This document shows, one piece after another, positions 20,590 to 29,812 of a stretch of DNA of 35,749 bases. The stretch covers positions 1 to 35,749 of the forward strand of contig CALXMP010000014.1 in the NCBI GenBank assembly GCA_944389505.1, given 5' to 3'. The notes beneath the pieces were generated by a model. That model saw only the letters and a program-made list of their open reading frames with translations. It did no database searches and was not told where the DNA came from. Position numbers and translations under genes: made by a program. Every line of letters starts with the position of its first letter. Within the stretch, counting starts at the first letter, position 1. Source of the DNA: an uncultured Spirochaetaceae bacterium. Lineage in GTDB: Bacteria > Spirochaetota > Spirochaetia > Sphaerochaetales > Sphaerochaetaceae.

Positions 20590-22032
20590 TTGATCTGTCT
20601 TACGTTATCTTCACCAACACTTGCCCTTTGTCTTGAGGAGATCAGAAAGAACAGAGAGTATATACAGATGGCGGAGCTGAGGCTTGATCTCCTGGATGAG
20701 GAGGAGCAGAAGAGGGCAAGGCTCTTTCCTGCAATGACCGATGTGCCCGTCATCCTCACACTCAGAAGAAAGTGCGATGGAGGAAAATGCACTCTCTCTG
20801 AGCGCCAGCGCAGGTCTCTTCTCCTTGATGCACTCGATGGGGATTTTGCCTATGTCGATATCGAGGAGGACATAAAGCGCAGCGAAGTCGAGCAGAAAGC
20901 CCGGGAGCGCGGTGTGAAGATAATCAGATCGTTCCATGACTTCACTGGCATGCCCGATGATATCTATTCCCGGATATATAAACTTGCTGAGCGCGGTGAT
21001 GTCGCGAAGGCCGCGGTCACTCCCCATTCGATTGCGGATCTCATGACGCTTTTCCGCATCGCGGATGAGCTTAGGGATGTCCCGAAGATAATCATAGGAA
21101 TGGGTGAGTGGGGAATGCCCCTGAGAATCCTCTACAGGAAGGCTGGATCGATGCTCACATTCGCTTCATCCGGCAGGGAGGTTGCCCCAGGCCAGCTTAC
21201 GGCAGAGAAGCTTAGTGTCCTTTACAGGGCGGATAAGGTCGATGACAGGACTGCTATCTATGGCATCATAGGCAATCCTGTGCTGCATACATCGTCTCCG
21301 GAGATCCATAATCCTGGATTCCATGCCATCAACTACAATGCGATATATCTTCCATTCCTTGTGGACAGCGTGCGCCATTTCTTCTCCCTTGCTGAGTACC
21401 TGAAGATGAGGGGATTCTCCGTCACGATTCCATTCAAGACCTCTGTCCTTATGTATCTTGGGAACATAACGAGGGAAGTGAAGCAGATAGGGGCATGCAA
21501 CACTGTCGTCAGGGTTCCTGGGATGTGGAAGGGCATAAATACCGATTACTATGGCTTCCTCCGTCCTATCCTGAAGGATATCGAGTCGGGAAGGATCAGG
21601 AATGCTCTTGTGATAGGTGCAGGAGGGGCTTCTCAGGCTATTGTATGGGCTCTCAGGAACCGCGGGGTGAAGGTCACAATCCTTAACAGGACGCTCAGCC
21701 ATGCCCAGGAGCTGGCAACGCTCAATTACTGCGGCTATGACAAGCTTGAGAATGCAAAGGCATATGAGGGCACGGTTGATCTGGTTGTGCAGACCACATC
21801 GGTAGGTCTCTATCCCGATTTCGACCAGAACCCGATCGAGGGATTCCGCTTTACAGGCAAGGAGATTGTCTACGATATAATCTACAAGCCGAAGATGACA
21901 AAGCTATTGAGGGAAGCTGAGAAGGCAGGATGCACCCTCCATTTCGGGGAGGAGATGCTCCTTGAGCAGGGCAAGCTGCAGTTCGAGGCCTTTACAGGCT
22001 ATCACTATCCGAAGGAACTCCCTCAGTCCTGA
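20590..22032 (+). CDS. aroDE: Bifunctional 3-dehydroquinate dehydratase (type I) / shikimate dehydrogenase
   Basis: Catalyses two successive shikimate-pathway steps. Residues 1-220 are a type I dehydratase: conserved AELRLDLL, the His in RSFHDFTG and the Schiff-base Lys in VAKAAVTPHS. Residues 220-480 are shikimate dehydrogenase: GNPVLHTSSPEIHN, the catalytic Lys in SVTIPFK, NTDYYGF, the NADP-binding GAGGASQAI with NRT, and TTSVGLYP. The fusion is known in plants, Chlamydiae and some spirochaetes. The start is a TTG with AAGGAG eight bases before it. Its 3' end overlaps the convergent XPB-partner gene by 41 bases. aroC and aroK lie about 4 kb away on the other strand. Confidence 0.95.
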   Translation: MICLTLSSPTLALCLEEIRKNREYIQMAELRLDLLDEEEQKRARLFPAMTDVPVILTLRRKCDGGKCTLSERQRRSLLLDALDGDFAYVDIEEDIKRSEVEQKARERGVKIIRSFHDFTGMPDDIYSRIYKLAERGDVAKAAVTPHSIADLMTLFRIADELRDVPKIIIGMGEWGMPLRILYRKAGSMLTFASSGREVAPGQLTAEKLSVLYRADKVDDRTAIYGIIGNPVLHTSSPEIHNPGFHAINYNAIYLPFLVDSVRHFFSLAEYLKMRGFSVTIPFKTSVLMYLGNITREVKQIGACNTVVRVPGMWKGINTDYYGFLRPILKDIESGRIRNALVIGAGGASQAIVWALRNRGVKVTILNRTLSHAQELATLNYCGYDKLENAKAYEGTVDLVVQTTSVGLYPDFDQNPIEGFRFTGKEIVYDIIYKPKMTKLLREAEKAGCTLHFGEEMLLEQGKLQFEAFTGYHYPKELPQS

Positions 22033-23677
22033 TTGATTTCACCGACAGTGGAAGCTCTGCTGTCTTCCATATCTTCGCGATATCCACATCCTCGCCATCG
22101 ATGATGACGTGCCCTGGATCCTCAGCCTTCGAGGCTCTTCCTATTATCGTCCGGCCATCGGTGAACTCGGCATAGACCTTAGCATTCCGTGTCGCCGCTG
22201 ATGCTATGAGCCTTGCTTTCTCCTGGTAGTAGAGGCCCAGTATCATGCTGACAGGGGGATTCTCTGTATCAGGGGACAGGATGAATCCTGATTCGATAAG
22301 CGCCCGTCTCAGCGCACTATCCGCATTCTGCAGCATGTCCATCCGGTTCTCAGCTCCGAACGGAATGCTGCGCTCCATTGCAATGCAATCAAAAGATGAG
22401 GCCTTGAGTTCCATCGGGCTTTCCTTCTCCTTCAGCTCCCAGCCTTCGGTCCTGCCAAGCATATCGAAACCCGCTGTCTTGAGTATCTTCCTCCATTCCT
22501 CTTCTGTCGATGGGTTCATTATGAAGACATTATCGGACAGCTTGGAGACTATATGTATCTGCAGGGTAGGAAGTGCATCCATCACACGAGCATTCTTGTC
22601 ATCCGCAGAGATTACAAGCGCTCTCATGCATCTGAGCGAGCTGAATGAGCCATACCATGATGAGATCCTTCCAGATACCATATCCGGCACGGTCTCGCTG
22701 GAGATCTTCTTTATCTCCTTCATGATATCCTTGTCCGACATTCCCATTGAGAATGCAGCCTTCGCCGATGTCCTTGTTATCGCCCACTGCTCTGAGATAT
22801 CAGCCTTCAGAGGCTGAGCAAATTGGAAGACAGGTGCTTTGAGCGAGCCGTCCGATGTTATCGTGAAATCCGAGGAAATTACCGCTGTGTCGGCTCTTCT
22901 CTGATCTGCATCAAATGCGCTTATCCGTCCTCCTTCAGCATATAGGACAGAGAATCTGAAGAGCATCTCCATATCGTTGGAGAGATCCACACCTGTTATC
23001 CTCGAAATCCTATGGAGAAGGGTTCCTATTTCATCCTCTGGATAGTCCGAGAGCCACTCTATGATATAGATTGCATGGGCAATCTTTCTGTGCATATCCC
23101 CATCCGCTTCAGGATGCATCATGTATGCAAGCTTGTCGTGGAGAGGGAGGGAGAAGAACGATAGCGCTGTATTTCTGTCCATGCTGAGTTTTCCGCCATC
23201 ATGGCGCAGCATCCCGAGCTCATCCATCGCCTCTGCCGATCTCACAGCTGCGAATGCTGTATTCTCCTTGTCGATGGAGGGAAAGCATCCGGTGATCAGA
23301 TCTAAGGATAGATACCTTGAATAGAGCGCATGATGCGAAGGAACATCCCCGGAAGAGAGTATGGAGAGCAGCATCGGGAAGAATGAGAGCAGATAGGGCT
23401 TCCTGCTGCTCTTTTTCCCCATCAGCGGATATACAGATACCGCCTTCATCCCTGTCTCGGTTATCTTCAGCGTCCCGTCCTTCTTCCTCTCTATGAGTCC
23501 TCTGTCAGCAAGGGATGCCTCCTCTTCGTCATCAAGGTGGTAATCATCGGAGAGCGCTATCGACGAAAGAAGGATGCCATCATCGTCCGAAGCCGCTCCT
23601 GCAATGGCATCGGAGTATGTCCTGATGAACTGCTTCCTTCTGTTTCCCTGGTCCCTGTAAAGAAAAAGACTCTCCAT
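21992..23677 (-). CDS. Helicase-associated partner protein of XPB
   Basis: A 561-residue protein with no classical enzymatic motif. It resembles the 'helicase-associated' (Helicase_C_3, XPB/Ssl2-like N-terminal) proteins found next to XPB in Actinobacteria and spirochaetes: an N-terminal winged-helix-like region (LADRGLIERKKDGTLKITETG) and a central segment of the LQIHIVSKLSDNVFIMNPS type, followed by a helicase-associated C-terminal domain. Its ATG overlaps the stop of the XPB gene by one base (TAATG), so the two are translated together and probably form a complex. The 3' end overlaps aroDE by 41 bases. The family assignment rests on context and general pattern, and is moderate. Confidence 0.7.
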   Translation of the reverse strand: MESLFLYRDQGNRRKQFIRTYSDAIAGAASDDDGILLSSIALSDDYHLDDEEEASLADRGLIERKKDGTLKITETGMKAVSVYPLMGKKSSRKPYLLSFFPMLLSILSSGDVPSHHALYSRYLSLDLITGCFPSIDKENTAFAAVRSAEAMDELGMLRHDGGKLSMDRNTALSFFSLPLHDKLAYMMHPEADGDMHRKIAHAIYIIEWLSDYPEDEIGTLLHRISRITGVDLSNDMEMLFRFSVLYAEGGRISAFDADQRRADTAVISSDFTITSDGSLKAPVFQFAQPLKADISEQWAITRTSAKAAFSMGMSDKDIMKEIKKISSETVPDMVSGRISSWYGSFSSLRCMRALVISADDKNARVMDALPTLQIHIVSKLSDNVFIMNPSTEEEWRKILKTAGFDMLGRTEGWELKEKESPMELKASSFDCIAMERSIPFGAENRMDMLQNADSALRRALIESGFILSPDTENPPVSMILGLYYQEKARLIASAATRNAKVYAEFTDGRTIIGRASKAEDPGHVIIDGEDVDIAKIWKTAELPLSVKSIRTEGVPSDSDSL

Positions 23678-25317
23678 TAGACGTATCCTTTCTCTATTGT
23701 GTAGCTGTAACCCTGCTCTGACAGGAACTTCTGCCTGTTCTGCGCGAAGGTCTCCTCCTCCGTATACTCCGTGATCAGGGTATAGAAATGGCTATCATGG
23801 TCCTTGGGCCTGAGTATCCTTCCGAGTCTCTGAGCCTCCTCCTGCCTGGAGCCGAATGTGCCGGAGATCTGTATCGCAACCGATGCATCGGGAAGATCTA
23901 TGGCGCTGTTTGCTACCTTGGAGACTATAAGGACATGAATCTCCTTTTTCCTGAATGCATCATACAGCTCCTCACGCTTCTTATTCGGTGTCGATCCTGT
24001 GATGATGGGGTAGCCGAACTCCTCTCTGAAGAGCTCAAGCTGTGTCAGATACTGCCCGATTATGAGGATAGAGTCGTCCTGGTGCTTCTCGATGATGCGC
24101 TTGGCAGCCTCTATCTTTCTTGGATTCTCTGCCGCGATCCTGTACTTCCCGCCCTTCGCGGCAAGCGCGTAGCGTATCTCATCCTCCTCGGAGAACTGCA
24201 GCCTTATCTCATGGCAGTATGCTGTGGCGATGTAGCCTGATGAGGCGAGCTCCGACCATGGTGTGTCATAGCGCTTTGGGCCGACGAGGGAGAATACCTC
24301 ATCCTCCCTTCCATCCTCCCTTATGAGCGTTGCCGTGAGTCCGAGCCTGTGTATGGCCTGAAGCTCAGCCGTGACACGGAATACAGGAGCGGGAAGCATA
24401 TGGACCTCATCATAGATGATGAATCCCCATCCGCCTTCCTTGAAGAGGGAGAAGCGGGGATAGGGCCCTTCCTTGTTGGGTCTCCATGTGACAATCTGAT
24501 AAGTACAGACAGTCACTGGCTTTATCTCCTTCTTCTCTCCTGAGTACTCTCCAACCTCTTCCTCTGTCAGATATGTCCGTGAAAGGAGTTCCCGTATCCA
24601 CTGATGCACCGCTGTCACATTCGGGCAGAGTATCAGGGTGCGCTTTCCGAGCTTTGCTGCCGCCATTATGCCAAGTATTGTCTTTCCTGCACCGCATGGA
24701 AGCACGACAGTACCGAAGCCAGAACCAGGCTTTCCATCTCCGAGGAATGCATCGAGCGCATCCACCTGATACGGTCTTGGGCTGAATGTGGGACGGAGCT
24801 TGATCTGAAGATCCTTCCCTCCAGATAGTGGGATCCTGTCATCGACAGGGAAGCCAAGCTTGATCATCAAGGCTTTCACTGTTCCCCTGTTCAGCCTGTC
24901 AATGAGGAATGAGCCATCATCCGTCGGCTCCAGATACTTCTCAAGACTCTTCTCAGCCTTGAGCTGGAGAGCGAAGACAGGGCGTCTTACCGTGAGGAGT
25001 ATCCTGGCATCATCGTAATCGGTCATTATGAAGTCGCCATACCGCGAGCATTGATCATCGATGAAGAAGAGAACCCTCTCGTCGATTCCGTACTTCGACC
25101 ATTTCTCCAGCCGCCTGATAATCTCCTCTCCAGATATGCCTGAAGACACGGCATTCCAGAGCGATAGCTGCGAAAGAGCATATGTATGCACATGCTCAGG
25201 GCTCTTCACAAGGTCTGCGAATGCGATGATATCGCTGCGGCACTCCGCAGCATCAGGAGAGTGCACGTCCAGAAGCATCGTCCTGTCGCTCTGTATCGTA
25301 AGCGGTCTATCTTTCAT
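23677..25317 (-). CDS. Bacterial XPB-type DNA repair helicase (ERCC3 family, SF2)
   Basis: ATP-dependent 3'-5' DNA helicase related to eukaryotic XPB. The N-terminal ~180 residues form the XPB damage-recognition-like region, followed by RPYQVDALDAFL (Q-like), Walker A PCGAGKT near residue 215, the DEVH box (IIYDEVHMLP), GLTATLIRED with the XPB-specific RED motif, and motif VI EEAQRLGRILRP. The ATG at 25317 is chosen over a longer frame because GAGGG precedes it and the longer frame would run deeper into aroC. It overlaps aroC by 11 bases and its partner gene by one. It is likely involved in nucleotide-excision or transcription-linked repair; its bacterial role is poorly known. Confidence 0.93.
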   Translation of the reverse strand: MKDRPLTIQSDRTMLLDVHSPDAAECRSDIIAFADLVKSPEHVHTYALSQLSLWNAVSSGISGEEIIRRLEKWSKYGIDERVLFFIDDQCSRYGDFIMTDYDDARILLTVRRPVFALQLKAEKSLEKYLEPTDDGSFLIDRLNRGTVKALMIKLGFPVDDRIPLSGGKDLQIKLRPTFSPRPYQVDALDAFLGDGKPGSGFGTVVLPCGAGKTILGIMAAAKLGKRTLILCPNVTAVHQWIRELLSRTYLTEEEVGEYSGEKKEIKPVTVCTYQIVTWRPNKEGPYPRFSLFKEGGWGFIIYDEVHMLPAPVFRVTAELQAIHRLGLTATLIREDGREDEVFSLVGPKRYDTPWSELASSGYIATAYCHEIRLQFSEEDEIRYALAAKGGKYRIAAENPRKIEAAKRIIEKHQDDSILIIGQYLTQLELFREEFGYPIITGSTPNKKREELYDAFRKKEIHVLIVSKVANSAIDLPDASVAIQISGTFGSRQEEAQRLGRILRPKDHDSHFYTLITEYTEEETFAQNRQKFLSEQGYSYTIEKGYV

Positions 25318-26374
25318 ATGCCCTCGATATAAGCAGATGATCTGCGATGACAAGTGCGGCCATTGCCTCGGCAACGGGAACTGCCCTGATTGCTATGCAT
25401 GGATCATGGCGTCCTCTGACTGTGATCTCCGTGTCCTCCATGGTATCGGTTATGGTCAGCTGTCTGGTGGATATCGATGGGGTAGGCTTCACAGCGATCC
25501 TCATGATTATATCATTGCCATTCGATATCCCTCCGAGGATTCCTCCTGCATTATTGGAAAGGAAGACAGGTCGGCCACTTTCCATTCTCATCATGTCATT
25601 GTTCTCAGAGCCTCTGTGCATAGCGCCTTCGAATCCGCTTCCGAACTCGATGCCCTTGACCGCTCCGATGGACATAATCGCCCCTGCAAGATCCGCATCA
25701 AGCTTTCCTGCAGCAGGTTCTCCAAGTCCGGGAATCATTCCGGTTGCCCTGCATTCGATGAGGCCTCCTATGCTGTCGCCATCAGCAGCTGCCCTCCGTA
25801 TTTCCTCCTCCATAGCTTTCAGTTCAGGGCATTCGGGCGCATAGATCGGGGGAGGGAAAGGCGGGGTCCAGCTGTAGCCCGAGGCCTTCGTCCCTCCAAC
25901 TGCTATCACTCCGGCATCTATGCTGATGCCTTCGTTTCTGAGAAGAAGCTTGGCAAGGGCTCCTCCGAATACTCTGCAGCTTGTCTCACGTCCTGAGGAT
26001 CTGCCACCGCCTCTTGGGTCACGTATCCCATATTTCATCTGGTATGTGTAATCGGCATGGCCCGGCCTGAATGTATGCGCTATATCATCATAGTCCGATG
26101 ACCGCTGAGATGTATTGCGTATGATGAACCCGATGGGAGCTCCTGTAGAAACACCATCCAGGATTCCAGAGAGAATCTCCGGCTCATCGCTTTCGTTCCT
26201 TTTTGTCCCCAGGGAAGTGCTTCCAGGTCTCCTCCTTGCCATCTCGGAGCGGATGAAATCCATGTCTATGGCTATGCCTGCAGGAAATCCATCGATAACG
26301 CCTCCGAGCGCTGGTCCGTGCGACTCCCCGAATGTAGTAAGACGCAGTAATCTTCCGAATGTGTTATTGGACAT
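25307..26374 (-). CDS. aroC: Chorismate synthase
   Basis: Makes chorismate from 5-enolpyruvylshikimate 3-phosphate using reduced FMN, the last shikimate-pathway step. Signatures are present in order: TFGRLLRLTTFGESHGPALG (N-terminal signature), RRRPG, GTPI-like TGAPIGF, the central RGGGRSSGRETSCRV signature, and SNNAGGILGGISNG with VKPTPSI. The 355 residues match the family. A longer frame exists, but the ATG at 26374, preceded by AAGGAG, is exactly at the conserved N-terminus. It overlaps aroK by 11 bases and the XPB gene by 11, so the genes are one translationally linked operon. Confidence 0.97.
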   Translation of the reverse strand: MSNNTFGRLLRLTTFGESHGPALGGVIDGFPAGIAIDMDFIRSEMARRRPGSTSLGTKRNESDEPEILSGILDGVSTGAPIGFIIRNTSQRSSDYDDIAHTFRPGHADYTYQMKYGIRDPRGGGRSSGRETSCRVFGGALAKLLLRNEGISIDAGVIAVGGTKASGYSWTPPFPPPIYAPECPELKAMEEEIRRAAADGDSIGGLIECRATGMIPGLGEPAAGKLDADLAGAIMSIGAVKGIEFGSGFEGAMHRGSENNDMMRMESGRPVFLSNNAGGILGGISNGNDIIMRIAVKPTPSISTRQLTITDTMEDTEITVRGRHDPCIAIRAVPVAEAMAALVIADHLLISRAYER

Positions 26375-26894
26375 AGCCATTCTCCTTGAGCGCTTCCAGG
26401 ATTCTCTTTGCTGTCTCCTCCTTGTCTCCATAAGGACCGAGCTCCAGCACAAGGTCTGCCATATCAAGATATTTCCTGTCGCGTTCCATGTAGAGCTTAT
26501 GGAATGAGAGCGCAGGATCATCCTTGTCCAGAAACGGTGGAATACCATCTTTGAGGATAACAGGAAGCATATCCTCCTCATTCCGCCTTAGGTATACGAC
26601 CTTCCCCGCTGTTTTGAGATAATCCCTCAGCCTGGCATTATCGGAAGCTCCGCCTCCAAGCGAGAGTATGAAGCTGGAATGGCTCTCAGCATAGTTCCTG
26701 ACAGCTTCGTATTCCTTCTCCATGAATGCGTCCTTGCCGGATGACCTGTAGAACTCCCTCACGCTAAGGCCTCCGAGAAGCGGCAGGGCCAATGCATCTG
26801 CATCACTGCATTCTGCAGCTATCATATCCGAGACAAGCTTTGCCATCCTTGTCTTTCCTGAATGTTTGATGCCAGCGAAGAATATCTTTGCCAT
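26364..26894 (-). CDS. aroK: Shikimate kinase
   Basis: Phosphorylates shikimate at the 3-hydroxyl with ATP. The P-loop GIKHSGKT is at residues 8-15, the shikimate-binding SLGGGA follows mid-protein, and the lid with KLYMERDRKYLDMADLVLE is at the C-terminal side. The 176 residues are normal. The region equivalent to the usual DxD/FxD metal site reads CSDADALAL, slightly unusual but acidic. The ribosome binding site is weak. It lies downstream of a small membrane-protein gene with a 31-base gap and overlaps aroC by 11 bases. Confidence 0.9.
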   Translation of the reverse strand: MAKIFFAGIKHSGKTRMAKLVSDMIAAECSDADALALPLLGGLSVREFYRSSGKDAFMEKEYEAVRNYAESHSSFILSLGGGASDNARLRDYLKTAGKVVYLRRNEEDMLPVILKDGIPPFLDKDDPALSFHKLYMERDRKYLDMADLVLELGPYGDKEETAKRILEALKENGYVQ

Positions 26895-26925
26895 AATAGA
26901 TGGATTCTATCAAAGCCGGAATAGA

Positions 26926-27378
26926 TTAATCAATGTCATCAGGGACTCTGTACTCCGGAACGGATGGTATCTTCTGCTCCGTAGCCGCACGCTGAAGTGT
27001 CTTCTTCCTCTCCCTCTTTCCCTTCCTCATCTCATACTTCTCAAGGTACTCAGCTTCCTTCCTGTTCTTTCTTGAATCGCTTTCGAACCTGTTCTCATCG
27101 ATTGTCTTCTTCAGCGCATAGTGGAATACGACAATCATCATGTACCAGAGGAATGCAAGTATGAACGGTGCGAAGTTCGTGAAATTGTACTCAAATGATG
27201 TTATGCCGGCCTCGCCAAGCATAAGCAGGGTATTGAGATTCTGGAAGAACATCAGCAGCGAGATGATTGCAGGGAATATCCAGTACAGACCCTGCCGGGA
27301 GAATATGAACCGGAGGGATGCCAGCAATGCCATGAATGTCAGCATGAGCGCTGTTATAGGAATGATGTATACAATCAT
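26926..27378 (-). CDS. Small membrane protein of unknown function
   Basis: A 150-residue protein with three predicted membrane segments (about residues 3-26, 32-56 and 68-90) followed by a strongly basic cytoplasmic tail (KNRKEAEYLEKYEMRKGKRE). I recognise no family. GAGG precedes the ATG by five bases. It is first in the minus-strand operon with aroK, aroC and the XPB pair, and divergent from the dNTP triphosphohydrolase gene, from which only 30 bases separate it. Membership in the operon may be positional only. Confidence 0.65.
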   Translation of the reverse strand: MIVYIIPITALMLTFMALLASLRFIFSRQGLYWIFPAIISLLMFFQNLNTLLMLGEAGITSFEYNFTNFAPFILAFLWYMMIVVFHYALKKTIDENRFESDSRKNRKEAEYLEKYEMRKGKRERKKTLQRAATEQKIPSVPEYRVPDDID

Positions 27379-29149: not shown

Positions 29150-29812
29150 ATGGCAGCATCTATAGCGAGCTACGTGAAGACGATTATCGACAGAAGCCCA
29201 TTCATTTCGGATATGCTTATACAGGATATCGCGTCATATTCCAACCTTGCTCTCTCTATCAAGCCGAAGGTTGAGGAGCTCTATGGTGCTCCCGTCTCGG
29301 ATTCATCCATCGTGATGGCAATCAGGAGATACGCTGAGGAGCTTAGATCAAGACCTAAGAAGAGCAGATCTGGAAGCATAAACTATGAGATACAGATGAA
29401 GACGAACATCTATGATGTTAATCTCCGCCGCAATGATCTCTTTGCCGAGAAACTTCCTGAGATATACTCTTCCGTTCACACTGATCGTGGTGATTTCATC
29501 AATGTAACAATCGGCTCACATGAGATAACGCTTTCCGTATCGGAGAACTGCAGGGAGAATGTCGATAGAATCCTCTCCGGCTTTGACATCGTCCATTCCT
29601 ATACTGATCTTGTTGCATTGACTATAGTTTTCCATGGAGATTATATCCAGACTCCTGGCATCACATATCTTGCGGTAAGGAAGCTTGCCTGGGAGCACAT
29701 AAACATCATTGAGATCGTCTCCACGATGAATGTCCTTACTTTCATCGTATCGAGAGAGGACAGCCACAGGGCGTATCAGGCACTCGAGGCATTTCTTGAT
29801 GAAGAGCTGTAG
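29150..29812 (+). CDS. ACT-like domain putative regulator
   Basis: A 220-residue cytosolic protein. Residues 1-70 form a helical, winged-helix-like region (SPFISDMLIQDIASYSNLAL... SSIVMAIRRYAEEL) and residues 80-220 an ACT-like duplication: strands around DFINVTIGSHEITLSV and a final LTFIVSREDSHRAYQALEAF. Proteins with this architecture, sometimes annotated as ACT-domain or 'aspartate kinase-like', occur in archaea and some bacteria; the function is not established. The family assignment is by pattern only. Two inverted repeats lie upstream, fitting autoregulation. The gene overlaps the downstream NTPase gene by 14 bases, implying coupled function. Confidence 0.65.
   Translation: MAASIASYVKTIIDRSPFISDMLIQDIASYSNLALSIKPKVEELYGAPVSDSSIVMAIRRYAEELRSRPKKSRSGSINYEIQMKTNIYDVNLRRNDLFAEKLPEIYSSVHTDRGDFINVTIGSHEITLSVSENCRENVDRILSGFDIVHSYTDLVALTIVFHGDYIQTPGITYLAVRKLAWEHINIIEIVSTMNVLTFIVSREDSHRAYQALEAFLDEEL

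Follow-up and report, generated by a model that had tools for sequence, protein, structure and literature searches.

The window analysed here is a stretch of 35,749 nucleotides, contig CALXMP010000014.1 (assembly GCA_944389505.1) of an uncultured Spirochaetaceae bacterium of the family Sphaerochaetaceae. The subject of this study is a pair of adjacent genes on its minus strand, one encoding an XPB helicase/translocase (546 amino acids, 23677..25317) and the other a protein of 561 amino acids (21992..23677), referred to as the partner, which an AlphaFold (AF2) model, Foldseek and profile searches describe as p52/Tfb2-like. The genes run in the order aroK, aroC, XPB and partner with successive overlaps of 11, 11 and 1 bases; the start codon of the partner shares one base with the stop codon of XPB (TAATG), and AAGGA lies 5′ of this start. 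An original prediction made on this DNA had described the same geometry, including a 41-base overlap of the partner tail with the convergent aroDE gene, and reading of the junctions bore it out. Based on sequence comparison and predicted structure, the gene pair probably represents a bacterial XPB translocase with a dedicated subunit of the p52 type, known from TFIIH as p52, Tfb2 or GTF2H4.

The XPB protein matches the bacterial XPB family NF045503 over its full length (residues 5-541, 765.4 bits against a cut-off of 610) and TFIIH XPB chains in the PDB with an E value of 8e-84. Its motor motifs are intact (GAGKT at 209, DEVH at 303, TATL at 328, RED at 333 and QRLGRILR at 496). The N-terminal domain belongs to PF13625 (residues 6-128, 24934..25302 on the minus strand, E 6.0e-25), a family that a search of the whole genome found in the XPB and partner genes only. 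The counterpart of this domain in human XPB is its p52-binding domain (PMC6422496). XPB matches were found in 158 of the 198 genomes sampled from the phylum, where the earlier description of XPB as rare in bacteria is therefore an overstatement. The seven genomes listed for one genus of the same class (g22, 1.0-1.8 Mb) show neither XPB nor partner.

Relation of the partner to p52

The partner is predicted to share the order of parts of p52 and to carry an additional small barrel at its C-terminus. Read on the minus strand, residues 1-258 (22904..23677) form a mostly helical part that matches the N-terminal part of p52 (partner residues 14-406 on 27-461 of 8ebu_D), the “winged-helix” label of this part being borrowed from p52. 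It is followed by a clutch domain (residues 262-348, 22634..22894) whose homologues are the N-terminal domain of XPB and the clutch of p52, by a small domain (residues 353-404, 22466..22621) in the position of the C-terminal, p8-binding domain of p52, and, outside the p52-matching region, by a small Sm/WYL-like beta barrel (residues 482-547, 22037..22234). The p52-like stretches are filled in all 48 aligned partners, and the barrel stretch in 42 of the 48, being short or empty in the other six.

The structural case starts from an AF2 model of the window partner with a mean predicted local distance difference test score of 90.4 and a predicted template modelling score (pTM) of 0.82. A Foldseek search of this model against 350,542 PDB chains returned p52/Tfb2 at ranks 1-20, with E values from 1.9e-10 to 2.7e-4, a probability of 1.00 and alignments of at most 497 columns, the TFIIH XPB chains coming next; the molecule was named by the tools for 6trs, 8ebt_D and 7o4i_2, and for the other chains the assignment follows the length of the chain and the TFIIH entry to which it belongs. 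VIA-align 2 placed partner residues 89-402 on 145-458 of p52 in 7nvv_2 (Z 13.2, 255 residues) and residues 84-406 on 139-461 of p52 in 8bvw_3 (Z 13.2, 262 residues, root-mean-square deviation (rmsd) 7.1), and the first row outside TFIIH had a Z of 7.7. The p52 alignments extend to residues 402-406 of the model and reach the small domain. The predicted model displays an N-terminal helical/winged-helix part, a clutch and a domain in the C-terminal position in the order found in p52. The partner clutch also superposes on the XPB N-terminal domain of 7egb_6 with a Z of 13.3 and an rmsd of 1.7 Å over 86 residues (VIA-align 2). In a single-chain model of a Treponema pair, the XPB half matched TFIIH XPB with a Z of 17.5 and the partner half matched p52 with a Z of 13.5.

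At the level of sequence, a search of the PDB sequences with the partner as a single query returned nothing at E 10, and only profiles gave matches. A profile of 48 partners, more diverse than the 29 of another profile considered below, placed Tfb2/p52 first (yeast 7.8e-8, human 1.4e-5), with an unrelated synthase (2.1e-3) and XPB (0.02) on lower rows. The Pfam family of p52, Tfb2 (PF03849), was matched at E ≤0.1 by nine of the 48 partners (best 3.1e-7). The highest score, 30.1 bits in a relative, falls short of the cut-off of 34.5, so the partner is not filed as a member of PF03849. A Tfb2 search of 118 genomes gave six matches at E ≤0.01, every one of them in a gene of the partner family, and no match at that threshold was seen in 14 control genomes. 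The partner is probably a homologue of p52 with a p52-like function.

The clutch allowed a direct comparison of the two candidate relatives. Briefly, the clutch segments of p52 and XPB from yeast and human were scored with a partner profile of 48 rows and an XPB profile of 90 rows. The partner profile gave 34.4 and 30.6 bits for the p52 pieces and 26.2 and 25.4 bits for the eukaryotic XPB pieces; the XPB profile gave 9.2 and 9.8 bits for p52 and 67.1 and 42.6 bits for eukaryotic XPB. In a tree with 48 rows, computed on 104 columns, the 24 XPB rows of both kinds separated from the 24 rows of partners and p52 with a support of 100/99, and p52 fell beside the partner of locus L162 (support 89/86); the window partner and two near relatives join between the XPB group and the partner/p52 group.

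In the partner Pfam recognised one weak domain, PF13625 at residues 279-362 (scoring 31.4 bits where the cut-off is 34.2), and up to an E value of 1 the matches were PF13625, Mrr_N and DUF4984, each below its cut-off. The barrel resembles WYL proteins in VIA comparisons (CapW 9c5g_B, Z 7.7; BrxR 7qfz_G, Z 7.6; PafBC 6sj9_B, Z 7.4), values that may reflect merely a shared arrangement, and the Pfam listings for the window partner and the 48 partners contain no match to the WYL family. The idea that the small domain is a possible relative of p8/Tfb5 was dropped, as no p8 appeared among its PDB-sequence matches and the Tfb5 family reached only E 0.185 in the genome. Searches of the window's genome for further TFIIH parts covered p8 and DEAD_2/XPD-DinG, and the latter returned one frame of 702 amino acids, located elsewhere.

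Linkage to XPB and the shikimate setting

The partner accompanies XPB far beyond the window. It was found in 54 of the 61 genomes sampled from the order, the window's own included, and in 29 of 30 loci of this order (again with that of the window) the end of XPB lies immediately before the partner, the stretch of L030 ending before the partner frame. (Loci are numbered L and genomes G throughout.) A scan made with XPB only was confined to the best 80 of at least 586 confirmed stretches, 53 with spirochaete titles and 27 others, the latter including Chloroflexi, Bacillota, Planctomycetota, Gemmatimonadota, SAR324 and Methanophagales. An open reading frame (ORF) of the partner family stands beside XPB in 57 of these 80 loci (42/53 spirochaete and 15/27 other) with a profile grown on the same loci, and in 51/80 with the starting, ungrown profile. 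Because ORFs with an XPB overlap above 250 bases were skipped in the scan, the partners of L115, L140 and L151 were hidden, and these loci are counted as positive. When phylum genomes were compared by position, the best partner match lay directly behind XPB in 28 of 38, the window's included. These 38, out of 198, are the genomes with a listed partner match at E ≤1e-10 and no XPB overlap, G086, G184 and G198 being excluded for want of a listed XPB position. The expectation that the partner belongs with XPB is thus supported, and the outcome that had been named as its refutation, a partner that does not occur beside XPB in other genomes, is contradicted by these counts.

Among the 57 linked partners, 53 lie downstream on the same strand, three directly upstream on the same strand and one upstream on the opposite strand. 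For 52 downstream pairs (51 scan loci and one Paenibacillus plasmid record), with the start taken as the codon nearest the XPB stop, 36 partners overlap XPB, nine begin at 0-30 bases, four at 31-100 bases and three farther away, so that an overlapping start is the usual case. Coupled translation of XPB and partner is plausible; the fixed stoichiometry that had been read from the TAATG junction does not follow, as a gene overlap does not demonstrate stoichiometry. The reversed order, with the partner 5′ of XPB, occurs in L172 (SAR324), L180 (Cysteiniphilum), L181 (an ANME-1 archaeon) and L101 (a cyanobacterial plasmid), and a linkage that persists when the order changes would be difficult to account for if the two genes had no common function. 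From the plasmid collection, seven of 33 matching regions were read, and a partner-profile match is present in L101, L102, L104 and L105; none was found within the stretches of L099, L100 and L103.

Several individual loci deserve mention in their own right. In the ANME-1 archaeon (L181:2789-6150) the partner is directly upstream of XPB with an overlap of four bases. Two of the partner-first loci carry an extra gene just 5′, of 483 amino acids in L172 (1277-2728) and 451 in L180 (526-1881); the two products are 32% identical to each other, match the partner profile weakly, lack Pfam matches at E 0.05 and are possibly a third subunit. An Anaerolineae locus (L170:2801-6938) holds two distinct partner paralogues in tandem behind XPB, and in G091 and G116 (L214, L215) the partner is present and distant from XPB. 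In L115:5592-8408, L140:1060-3948, L151:4650-8399 and L221:4372-7485 the partner frame stays open deep into the XPB gene that it overlaps, and the partner lengths given by ORF callers are therefore probably far too great; the ORF of 1037 amino acids in L221 is such a frame and is not put forward as a long partner.

Upstream of the pair in the window lie aroC, encoding chorismate synthase (25307..26374, minus strand, PF01264 E 4.2e-128), and aroK, encoding shikimate kinase (26364..26894, minus strand, PF01202 E 1.8e-20). The 5′ neighbour of aroK encodes a predicted membrane protein of 150 amino acids (26926..27378, minus strand), a description taken from the sequence, which has no Pfam match above cut-off; the span originally singled out began at the partner stop and ended at this gene without naming it. 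On the other side, the convergent aroDE (20590..22032, plus strand; PF01487, PF08501, PF01488) combines DHquinase I with shikimate dehydrogenase according to Pfam. At some distance, the ORF at 29150-29812 comes close to the threshold of DUF7523 (26.0 bits, cut-off 27) and has an ACT-like end.

The embedding of the pair in a shikimate operon proved to be a family trait and not a general one. In 20 larger loci selected within the family from genomes that have a partner match, aroK-aroC-XPB-partner lie on one strand in every case (20/20), with partner identity across these loci falling to 22-42%. The predicted membrane protein precedes aroK in all 20, and aroDE follows convergently in 19, the contig of L188 ending before that place. 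Across the 80 XPB loci, some of them shortened, an aroC match was seen in seven and an aroDE match in 12, which makes the shikimate genes a local setting; they are probably not part of the function of XPB and partner and share just the message with them. In six spirochaete loci (L115, L116, L119, L123, L127 and L139) aroDE is near the XPB-partner pair with no aroK or aroC match in the stretch, and the link of aroDE to the pair may be older than the full shikimate string.

Counter-evidence and rival explanations

A number of results weigh against a p52-type subunit. Superposition of the whole chain on p52 is loose (rmsd of at least 6.5, query template modelling score 0.18-0.32), as expected for a flexible multi-domain protein, and the claim thus rests on domain order and fold. 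The single-chain, read-through model of the XPB-partner pair reached a pTM of 0.51 with a poorly modelled motor and an unreadable interface. The small domain alone, compared with the PDB sequences, gave no relative and no p8 among its six matches, and the window's genome has no p8 family match above cut-off (Tfb5 at best E 0.185, a family with sub-cut-off matches in four of 14 control genomes too). The profile of 29 partners, run against all PDB sequences, ranked XPB N-terminal domains first (6.1e-6) and p52/Tfb2 second (2.4e-4), its single other match being weak (0.69). The PF03849 cut-off was reached in none of the 118 genomes (0/118), the window's own genome has no Tfb2 match, and only one of the six Tfb2 matches (L213) has XPB within the fetched stretch. 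Regarding linkage, no partner is seen in 23 of the 80 loci, eight with full flanks of 4.5 kb and 15 shortened on at least one side, and the best partner match among those listed stands apart from XPB in ten of the 38 phylum genomes, where a second copy beside XPB may exist. The clutch comparisons add to this list. In the partner profile p52 is only modestly ahead of XPB, by a margin that changes with the rows used: human XPB beat human p52 (30.2 against 22.2 bits) in one of three random 20-row samples, and a clutch profile built solely from the six partners nearest to that of the window preferred eukaryotic XPB (30.9 and 28.9 bits) over p52 (11.8 and 10.3 bits). The tree was built from 104 columns, and its deep joins, the XPB split included, are flagged by the program as meeting long branches.

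A rival explanation is a different history, in which the partner arose as a lineage-specific duplicate of the N-terminal half of XPB, resembles p52 through parallel duplication, binds XPB or DNA and has an origin separate from that of p52. Alongside the preference of the window family's clutch profile for XPB, hhalign aligned partner residues 262-405 with XPB 3-157 at an E value of 3.8e-15 (one comparison), which extends the kinship with XPB beyond the clutch. Among the close relatives of the window partner the sequence evidence for a tie to p52 is weak, and since the profile of its six nearest members favours XPB, the kinship of this family with p52 rests on the wider family and the fold. Nevertheless, the p52 match also spans the parts before and after the clutch, the wide partner profile ranks p52 above XPB while the XPB profile scarcely detects p52, and p52 falls among the partners in the tree; a separate duplication is judged distinctly unlikely. 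A role as a transcription or stress regulator, with the partner made a DNA-binding sensor by its N-terminal helical part and its barrel and using XPB in place of serving it as a p52-like motor subunit, is compatible with p52-type docking and draws on the likeness of the barrel to the WYL domains of PafBC, BrxR and CapW (Z 7.4-7.7). Such Z scores may signify merely a common arrangement, and the barrel is the part that six of the 48 partners lack or shorten while their p52-like stretches stay filled; this role is also considered unlikely.

An SF2 (superfamily 2) helicase with an accessory protein is a frequent layout of defence systems. PADLOC matches cover parts of the XPB motor (PbeA, E 3e-23), which could likewise speak for an anti-phage pair; however, PADLOC gave no match for the window partner and two relatives, and the pair is kept with metabolic genes in all 20 family loci, unlike the patchy spread expected of defence genes. 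A defence system was set aside on the missing partner match and is regarded as very improbable. Hardly credible is a grouping that has no functional meaning past shared transcription in a compact genome: the upstream aro genes are indeed functionally unrelated and ten of 38 genomes have their best partner match apart from XPB, but the linkage recurs in several phyla, in both gene orders and with overlapping starts. A bacterial XPB translocase with a p52-type subunit is the reading carried forward here.

Proposed role and comparison with known systems

Several steps of a mechanism can be proposed by transfer from TFIIH. In the human complex the N-terminal domain of XPB is a homologue of the p52 clutch, the two associate as a pseudo-symmetric dimer, and p52 recruits XPB through the clutch (PMC6422496). 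The clutch-type domains, one per protein, would pair pseudo-symmetrically in the same manner, and the partner would dock on XPB via this pairing and set the activity of the motor. The small domain behind the clutch might sit on the second RecA lobe and either stimulate or limit the ATPase, and the N-terminal part and the barrel could make contact with DNA or a different nucleic acid and guide the motor. Overlap of the two genes would help joint production of both proteins. The most likely use of such a machine would be the opening of duplex DNA, either during repair or where transcription has stalled.

Whether the XPB-p52 module predates eukaryotes is, in our estimation, evenly balanced. In that case the clutch would have been duplicated before the split between the bacterial and eukaryotic lines, and the module would survive in many bacteria, and in one archaeal lineage or more, as a unit of two genes that is the minimal working TFIIH translocase; the origin of the XPB-p52 part of TFIIH would move to a time before eukaryotes. 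Bacterial XPB, studied on its own, has proved weak, one paper of 2012 reporting helicase activity only at high molar excess (PMC3353954). That paper states that no bacterial XPB complex had been identified and that homologues of p52 and p44 had not been found in bacteria, and a review of 2026 describes what XPB does in archaea and bacteria as “elusive” (PMC13024598). No report of a bacterial p52 homologue appeared among the open-access PMC matches listed, subscription papers and preprints being outside that search. If the proposal is true, the missing subunit of bacterial XPB is the next gene, which makes the puzzle of the weak enzyme directly testable. The two-protein unit would also offer a simple model of how p52 drives XPB in TFIIH, in which XPB mutations cause disease and p52 mutations in the fly lead to disease-like phenotypes (PMC6422496). 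In the Chaetomium system p52 suffices to enable the ATPase function of XPB (PMC7708078).

Compared with TFIIH p52/Tfb2/GTF2H4 (PF03849), the partner is alike in its predicted fold, in the order of its parts, in a clutch that is a homologue of the N-terminal domain of XPB and in having XPB as its genetic partner; it differs in being prokaryotic, in lying under the PF03849 cut-off, in its extra C-terminal barrel and in a genome without a p8 match. The archaeal XPB-Bax1 pair resembles the present one as an XPB with a dedicated partner protein (PMC7293015, PMC7672443, PMC13024598). Bax1, however, is a nuclease that binds the thumb and the second helicase domain of XPB (PMC13024598), whereas the partner matches p52; a Bax1-like nuclease was set aside as a candidate on the ground that no nuclease family exceeds its Pfam cut-off in the partner, the Bax1 family not having been searched by name. 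With the WYL proteins PafBC, BrxR and CapW the likeness is confined to the one small C-terminal barrel at moderate Z, while the remainder is p52-like. The partner profile also found proteins annotated as “helicase-associated domain-containing protein” at XPB loci of Paenibacillus, Deinococcus and Actinomyces, and PF13625 is present in L102 and L104. Annotators have thus already recognised the family, under a domain name, but the annotations seen state neither a function nor a kinship with p52. The link proposed here is between p52 and a prokaryotic XPB partner that has a p52-like build and one domain more, in a protein that stays below the Pfam cut-off.

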